Of a stretch of 57,432 nt of DNA, positions 2,773-3,434 are shown in pieces. The position numbers were made by a program, and so were the translations under genes. Below the pieces are notes generated by a model. That model was not told the DNA's origin, made no database searches, and saw only the letters and a list, made by a program, of their open reading frames with translations. Location of the stretch: IMG/VR virus record IMGVR_UViG_3300035703_000111, positions 1 to 57,432 of that record; one strand, given 5' to 3'. Position 1 is the first letter of the stretch; each line of letters opens with the position of its first letter. This DNA is from a virus.

Positions 2773-2801
2773 TTGCATAGATATGATAGCAGGTCTATAA
2801 T
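2773..2801 (+). promoter_or_regulatory. sigma70-type promoter upstream of riboswitch
   Basis: TTGCAT (2773-2778), a 17-base spacer and TATAAT (2796-2801). Transcription would start about base 2808, exactly at the 5' edge of the glutamine riboswitch fold, which supports both calls. Confidence 0.75.
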
Positions 2802-2807
2802 GACCTT

Positions 2808-2902
2808 ACGTTCATCCAGGTAACTGGACGCAAGTAGGACGGCGGAACGGATCGTTCATTCGCTATTCGCAAATAGCGAACGCAAACCGCCCGAAGGAAC
2901 GG
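2808..2902 (+). ncRNA. Glutamine-II riboswitch (Downstream-peptide motif)
   Basis: The conserved elements of the cyanobacterial/cyanophage Downstream-peptide RNA are present in order: CGTTCAT opening P1, a TCCAG-GTAA-CTGGA hairpin (2815-2828), the GGACGcAAGTAGG core, a GGCGG/CCGCC helix (2841-2845 with 2887-2891), and CCGAAGGAACG closing P1 (CGTTC 2809-2813 with GAACG 2897-2901). This RNA class binds L-glutamine. Unusually, the GGCGG/CCGCC arm carries an extra 9-bp hairpin (2859-2867 with 2872-2880). The element lies between a sigma70 promoter and a short YRG-motif ORF, the usual position for this class. Confidence 0.88.
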
Positions 2903-2935
2903 GGCCTAAAAATCTCATTTCTTTGGAGCAAAACA

Positions 2936-3073
2936 ATGGCAAAAGTAGTATATCGTGGCATCGAATATGATACCCAGAAGCGTCTGGAGTATCAACAGCA
3001 AATGATGCAACAACCCCAACAGTACAACGAAACATATCGTGGTGTTAAGTTTACTAAGGAGGGACATAAGTGA
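2936..3073 (+). CDS. Riboswitch-controlled 45-aa peptide, DUF4278-like YRG motif
   Basis: This is the downstream peptide of the glutamine riboswitch. It has two copies of the short pattern YRGxxY/F (VYRGIEYD near the N-terminus, TYRGVKFT near the C-terminus) around a Gln-rich middle. Paired YRG motifs are typical of small cyanobacterial proteins I know as DUF4278; their function is unknown. TTTGGAG lies 7 bases before the ATG. The stop overlaps the next start (TGATG), beginning a chain of four coupled micro-ORFs. Confidence 0.8.
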   Translation: MAKVVYRGIEYDTQKRLEYQQQMMQQPQQYNETYRGVKFTKEGHK

Positions 3074-3171
3074 TGAAGAAACTTAATGTGCTTCAACTCA
3101 TTAAAGAGCAAAAGCAAAAAGAGCAACGTCGTTATCAAGCACTGCTTGTGAACGCAGGAGCAGGTAAGTGA
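3073..3171 (+). CDS. Micro-ORF, 32-aa basic helical peptide
   Basis: Begins MKKLNVLQLIKEQKQKEQ and ends NAGAGK. It is highly charged and probably one helix. It is coupled to the upstream peptide by TGATG, and AAGGAGGGA sits 8 bases before its ATG, a strong ribosome site. Its stop overlaps the GTG start of the next micro-ORF (GTGA). Function unknown. Confidence 0.6.
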   Translation: MKKLNVLQLIKEQKQKEQRRYQALLVNAGAGK

Positions 3172-3254
3172 TTGCTACGATTGCAGCTATTACTTGTGCA
3201 TCGACAGCATTCATTTATCTAATTTATTTTGAAGTTCTATTGCTAAACAAGTAA
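3168..3254 (+). CDS. Micro-ORF, 28-aa membrane peptide (GTG start)
   Basis: A GTG-initiated peptide with GGAG 7 bases upstream. Almost the whole sequence is one hydrophobic segment (IATIAAITCASTAFIYLIYF, then EVLLLNK), so it is a probable single-span membrane peptide. It overlaps the previous ORF by four bases and its TAA shares a base with the next ATG (TAATG). The unbroken overlaps with its neighbours are the best evidence that it is translated. Function unknown. Confidence 0.55.
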   Translation: MIATIAAITCASTAFIYLIYFEVLLLNK

Positions 3255-3409
3255 TGGAAAATTACCATTACCATTATGATGATATGGATAAGGACAGTAG
3301 AGGGCCTGCTTGTTATCTTTTAACATATAGAGGATGTCGATACTGGTCTTGTTACCGCATTCATCTAGTGGAATGGTTTGAAAAAATGTTTAAGTCAGAG
3401 GGGTCTTGA
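3254..3409 (+). CDS. Micro-ORF, 51-aa peptide with one YRG motif
   Basis: The last of the four coupled micro-ORFs. It starts with a His/Tyr-rich run (MENYHYHYDDMD) and contains TYRGCRYW, the same YRGxxY pattern as the first riboswitch peptide, followed by an amphipathic helix (HLVEWFEKMF). Three Cys are present. Its stop lies in the loop of the terminator hairpin and inside the next promoter's -35 box. Function unknown; a second DUF4278-like product is an inference. Confidence 0.55.
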   Translation: MENYHYHYDDMDKDSRGPACYLLTYRGCRYWSCYRIHLVEWFEKMFKSEGS

Positions 3410-3425
3410 CACTCCTCTTTTTTTT
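3397..3425 (+). terminator. Intrinsic terminator of the riboswitch operon
   Basis: AGAGGGG (3397-3403) pairs with CTCCTCT (3412-3418) around an 8-base loop, followed by an unbroken T run (3418-3425). The loop contains the TTGACA of the next promoter and the U tract lies in that promoter's spacer. Confidence 0.8.
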
Positions 3426-3434
3426 ATGTATAAT
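3406..3434 (+). promoter_or_regulatory. Consensus sigma70 promoter for the thyX operon
   Basis: TTGACA (3406-3411), a 17-base spacer and TATAAT (3429-3434), perfect hexamers. The first downstream ATG is at 3458. The promoter is superimposed on the preceding terminator. Confidence 0.9.

Follow-up and report, generated by a model that had tools for sequence, protein, structure and literature searches.

Features of the locus

The window analyzed here, i.e., the whole stretch of 57,432 bases, is a virus record that matches T4-like cyanophages best, though none of them closely. As proposed in an earlier note made from the sequence alone, it contains a predicted transcription unit in which a riboswitch is followed by four micro-ORFs, overlapping by 1 to 4 nt, and then by a terminator-like hairpin (Table 1).

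Table 1. Features of the riboswitch-micropeptide unit in window coordinates; dN/dS values are from related IMG/VR loci
Feature	Coordinates	Strand	Remarks
Promoter	2773..2801	+	-35 TTGCAT 2773-2778 (weak, 3/6), 17-nt spacer, perfect -10 TATAAT 2796-2801; read from sequence
Inverted repeat flanking the -10 box (AGGTC-TATAAT-GACCT)	2791..2806	.	Sequence occurs a single time in the window
Glutamine riboswitch aptamer, glnA class (type 1), extended P3	2807..2905	+	RF01739
Aptamer P1	2809-2813/2897-2901	+	Invariant over 50 distinct leaders, hence without covariation
Aptamer P2	2815-2819/2824-2828	+	Covariation over 50 distinct leaders
Aptamer P3	2837-2842/2887-2892	+	Covariation over 50 distinct leaders
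Hairpins inserted in P3	2845-2857 and 2859-2880	+	Both covary over 50 distinct leaders
Probable expression platform	2887..2928	+	P1 3' strand alternatively pairs with UUUCUUU beside the Shine-Dalgarno sequence GGAG 2925-2928
ORF1	2936..3073	+	45 aa, two YRG motifs, DUF4278-like; phrog_5049; dN/dS 0.08
ORF2	3070..3171	+	Basic and helical; 33 aa if begun at GTG 3070, 32 aa if begun at ATG 3073; dN/dS 0.12
ORF3	3168..3254	+	28 aa, hydrophobic, one helix; starts with GTG; motif IYxEVLLL, GRAVY 1.59; dN/dS 0.18
ORF4	3254..3409	+	51 aa, invariant CYxLxYRGxxYWSCY core; dN/dS 0.12
Intrinsic terminator-like hairpin and T-run	3397..3426	+	Hairpin 3397-3418; ORF4 stop within the hairpin

The sigma70 promoter claimed in that note retains its perfect -10 box, but its -35 box is weak. 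TTGACA-like boxes occur at the same spacing in relatives, with at least five of six matches in 72 of 126 cases. The -10 box forms the loop of an AGGTC/GACCT inverted repeat, the arms of which vary in relatives yet stay complementary. An inverted repeat of at least 4 bp was found in 111 of 126 leaders and in 31 of 290 other promoter-like sites, two sets that are not alike, as a -35 box with at least five of six matches was required of the other sites only. The terminator expected after ORF4 is present as a terminator-like hairpin with a T-run. It is overlapped by the perfect sigma70-type promoter of the next gene (TTGACA-17-TATAAT, 3397-3434), whose -35 box falls within the loop of the terminator.

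The leader contains a type 1 glutamine riboswitch

The leader matched the Rfam family RF01739 with 40.9 bits (gathering score, 35; E value over the window, 1.6e-5), and no match to RF01704 (glutamine-II) at its gathering score was obtained in the window. The proposed glutamine riboswitch was thus recovered by a covariance model, but its class is glnA rather than glutamine-II. Among 20 related loci, 12 passed the RF01739 cut-off. A nested structure composed of P1, P2, and a P3 that is extended by two inserted hairpins accounts for 50 distinct leaders, in which 99.2% of cells were paired and covariation was well above that of shuffles and slid controls. P2 and P3 showed changes on both sides, with 97 to 100% of cells paired. 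Glutamine riboswitches have been described in tandem (PMC2864571). An arrangement of this kind, pairing 5A with 3A and 5B with 3B, is considered unlikely here: it fails in the CAACG/CGTTG leaders, which show compensatory changes in the nested pairing, and it lacks a covarying P3, although at three loci (L015, L025, and L031) the Rfam match covers the downstream copy only.

In the minimum-energy fold of the free leader, the 3' strand of P1 is paired beside the Shine-Dalgarno sequence (z score of -3.1). When P1 was forced to form across relatives, an accessibility model indicated that the Shine-Dalgarno sequence was not freed on average (0.22 versus 0.23), and the ON direction assumed below is therefore taken from published work, according to which type 1 and type 2 glutamine switches raise expression with glutamine (PMC6316151). 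That the leader senses glutamine is what we infer from its membership in this riboswitch family.

Many relatives carry an additional conserved ORF of 50 to 66 aa within the extended P3, namely, at ten isolate loci (L203-L212) and on many IMG/VR contigs (L216-L334); it is absent from the window. Its last codons and stop are made by the aptamer core (GAC TGA AGGAACG), as in L208:1097-1291, and the examples scanned belong to phrog_13397 or phrog_504. A dN/dS of about 0.2 for pairs at least 60% alike indicates purifying selection. The hairpin loop that precedes this ORF is GAG, completing GGAG, in 10 of 15 embedded-ORF leaders that were not chosen for GAG, compared with 1 of 87 leaders without the ORF. 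An initial assignment of L004, L007, and others as HNH endonucleases fused into the aptamer was rejected, as they correspond to such aptamer-embedded ORFs. Unrelated phage peptides are also linked to the riboswitch (L082-L200), for example, MTWQDFCRKREL.. (31 aa), ..FGARKEVDINGEGTSGYVVKHG.. (65 aa), and MKELIKSVRYRHLQIRIYK.. (78 aa).

The four micro-ORFs are conserved

Related IMG/VR loci were retrieved in a protein-seeded scan with ORF4 that yielded 258 stretches; the 80 best of these were retained. The frames of the ORFs and their overlaps are kept in about 60 of these loci. Where the sequence extended 700 nt or more upstream (63 loci), all four ORFs were present at 47. At 14 of the 63, ORF3 is absent and ORF2 is joined directly to ORF4, with ORFs 1, 2, and 4 kept, and at the remaining 2 it is replaced by a different hydrophobic peptide.

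It may be argued that only ORF1 is a gene and that ORFs 2 to 4 are frames open by accident in its 3' region, given the very small size of all the ORFs and the lack of annotation for most of them in isolates. The codon analysis already contradicts this alternative, which we consider extremely improbable. In 53, 46, and 51 distinct sequences of ORF2, ORF3, and ORF4, respectively, dN/dS was 0.12, 0.18, and 0.12; the relatives were picked by ORF4 similarity, which favours a low value for ORF4, whereas ORFs 1 to 3 were not so selected. Within the related loci none of the four frames contains an in-frame stop, whereas the alternative frames are interrupted by stops in nearly all sequences. Furthermore, the start-stop overlaps are conserved, ORF4 is found after other YRG peptides too, and hundreds of related viral sequences retain parts of the peptide set, which argues that the set is real. 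On this comparative evidence, the four micro-ORFs are not chance frames. The TGATG, GTGA, and TAATG junctions and the sizes of 45, 28, and 51 aa reported earlier for ORFs 1, 3, and 4 are upheld, and the comparison across relatives disclosed no frame-disrupting changes in ORFs 2 to 4.

For ORF2, the conserved frame is real, but the 32-aa length first given for it is probably one residue short. Its ATG is replaced by ATT or ATA in seven loci in which the GTG one codon earlier is kept, so that GTG 3070, giving 33 aa, is the likelier start.

Relationships of the individual peptides

ORF1 matched phrog_5049 with an E value of 1.5e-11. Its score against DUF4278 (PF14105) was 19.9 bits, i.e., under the Pfam gathering cut-off of 25.3, and a P-SSM2 relative of ORF1 reached 29.0 bits, above this cut-off. 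A search with tblastn for ORF2 in isolates gave no match. Profile comparison related ORF2 to the N-terminal helix (first 23 residues) of 54-aa fused peptides of other phages with a probability of 89, where column-shuffled controls reached at most 12. These fused peptides combine the helix and two YRG motifs in one protein, so that the window appears to split into ORF1 and ORF2 what is a single YRG-plus-helix protein elsewhere. Relatives of the fused peptide were also seen on three contigs from MAGs that bear the labels Euryarchaeota, Saprospiraceae, and bacterium TMED88 (L335-L337); possibly, these non-cyanobacterial labels reflect phage contigs that were binned with those genomes.

ORF4 was detected in 37 isolate records, in many of which it is unannotated, and in at least 559 IMG/VR stretches. 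When 84,980 species of bacteria and archaea were scanned with two short motifs as seeds, no host relative was obtained. In a second scan, all 66 loci with enough upstream sequence had a YRG peptide upstream of ORF4, which was of the fused type in 53 loci, of the ORF1 type in 10, and of the S-RIM32 type in 3. A strict pattern recovered the riboswitch core in 55 of these 66 loci, and its 3' part was visible in the other 11. The elements of the unit co-occur in a modular manner. The predicted structure of ORF4, which is of low confidence (mean pLDDT of 67.5), consists of a beta hairpin and a C-terminal helix. The YRG motif that had been noticed in both ORF1 and ORF4 is indeed present in both, but their profiles could be aligned over no more than 8 columns (probability of 45), too little to establish homology. 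The window ORF4 had no match to PF14105 in the Pfam search, and an S-RIM8 relative scored 17.0 bits, under the cut-off of 25.3.

ORF3 ends in IYFEVLLLNK and belongs to a single-helix family (YxE-LLL). Its earlier description as almost pure membrane helix agrees with its hydrophobic single-helix character, but the peptide is less fixed in the unit than that account implied. Of 65 distinct peptides with the IYxEVLLL motif, 61 lie just 3' of the riboswitch and YRG pair, and most of those outside this position are at contig ends; the 5.2 Mb concerned were gathered around riboswitches or ORF4 and thus show the position of ORF3 therein, not its rarity elsewhere. ORF3, with its conserved hydrophobic helix and its tie to the riboswitch-YRG unit, might itself be the effector, acting as a small membrane peptide in the timing of lysis or the exclusion of other phages while the remaining peptides serve as regulators; published speculation does connect the glutamine riboswitch of a phage with lysis timing (PMC9004378). 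Nevertheless, ORF3 is the least conserved of the four ORFs and is lacking at the 14 loci where ORFs 1, 2, and 4 are all retained, and an effector role of this kind seems improbable.

A proposed glutamine-gated peptide set

The reading that we tentatively favour, with a probability of about 0.45, is that of a glutamine-gated phage micropeptide set, produced by coupled translation, that modulates host nitrogen assimilation. In this model, a phage mRNA would start just before the type 1 glutamine riboswitch, encode the four micropeptides, and end at the terminator. Plentiful glutamine would stabilize the aptamer and raise ORF1 translation, and the rise would be passed on to ORFs 2 to 4 via the overlapping stops and starts. 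The peptides may then act jointly, with ORF1 and ORF2 as split halves of the YRG-plus-helix protein, ORF3 as an anchor or signal at the membrane, and ORF4 as a phage-only partner, and the set would act on host nitrogen assimilation during infection.

In favour of this model are the RF01739 score of the leader, which like that of 12 of 20 related loci exceeds the cut-off, the covariation of the aptamer, the purifying selection on all four ORFs, the conserved overlaps, the riboswitch-linked YRG peptide upstream of ORF4 in all 66 assessable loci of the second scan, the putative membrane peptide tied to the unit, and the ORF2 helix fused to YRG domains elsewhere. The nitrogen target is suggested by cyanobacteria, in which this riboswitch is partnered with DUF4278 proteins connected with the control of glutamine synthetase: glutamine aptamers are there found mainly before DUF4278 genes, and in IF17, an inactivating factor of glutamine synthetase, DUF4278 makes up the N-terminal portion (PMC6316151). 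Counting against the model are the score of ORF1 below the DUF4278 cut-off, the Shine-Dalgarno sequence that forced P1 did not free, and the loci that lack ORF3. A further point against the nitrogen target is that the DUF4278 part has been reported to be dispensable for IF17 inhibition (PMC6316151). Neither an IF7/IF17 family match nor an IF7-like domain was recognized: NCBIfam gave no hit for ORF1, ORF4, and the fused peptide, and Pfam gave none for ORF2 and ORF3. PirA, considered at one stage as the closest protein, was dropped, as the PirA paper does not mention DUF4278.

Alternatively, the peptides could serve general host takeover or a non-nitrogen inhibition, glutamine being only a cue of metabolic state or infection stage. 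ORF4, for which the motif-seeded scan gave no relative in bacterial or archaeal genomes, and the several unrelated kinds of other riboswitch-linked phage peptides are consistent with this idea, as is the fact that glutamine riboswitches precede unrelated phage genes, e.g., in Melnitz, an OM43 phage, where one lies before a tmRNA (PMC9004378). The commonest partner, however, is a YRG/DUF4278-like peptide, as in cyanobacteria (PMC6316151), and we regard this alternative as somewhat unlikely. An extended form of the nitrogen model, in which a modular phage-specific system uses the riboswitch to dose a multi-peptide complex with a membrane-anchored subunit that seizes host nitrogen control, and in which the aptamer-enclosed gene of relatives couples translation to ligand sensing, is speculative and rather unlikely.

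Nitrogen limits much of the ocean, where cyanophages are abundant, and the unit hints at how viruses could couple the production of small proteins to the nitrogen state of the host. If the model is correct, conserved metabolite-gated phage micropeptides would be a compact means of steering host nitrogen use. The peptide set makes the role of phage riboswitches and the function of DUF4278-type peptides testable, and it illustrates that annotation misses such genes, as with ORF4 in many isolate records.

Comparison with known systems

The link between this riboswitch and DUF4278 is already known, and glutamine riboswitches have been described in cyanophages (PMC9964418, PMC9602691). Searches of open-licence literature turned up no account of a unit with four peptides, of the ORF4 family, or of the membrane peptide. 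The closest cellular arrangement is that of the type 1 glutamine riboswitch before cyanobacterial DUF4278 genes (gifB/IF17), with which the window shares the RNA family and a DUF4278-like first product; the phage unit, in contrast, adds three peptides, and its P3 has two extra hairpins. In marine picocyanobacteria, the related downstream-peptide/glutamine-II aptamer (RF01704) precedes short YRG-type peptides, and the small ORFs linked to the downstream-peptide riboswitch are under purifying selection (PMC2864571). The window RNA scores with RF01739 instead, and the descriptions consulted for the RF01704 type have a single downstream peptide. Among phages, the T4-like cyanophage S-CREM1 has an annotated RF01739 riboswitch before a short YRG peptide (PMC9964418), but there the riboswitch is followed by one fused peptide consisting of YRG plus an ORF2-like helix, and a four-peptide unit was not described. 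The 54-aa fused peptide phrog_545 of S-RIM8, S-RSM4, S-WAM2, and others is riboswitch linked, contains the ORF2-like helix and two YRG motifs, and is followed by ORF4, whereas the window has two proteins, ORF1 and ORF2, in place of one.
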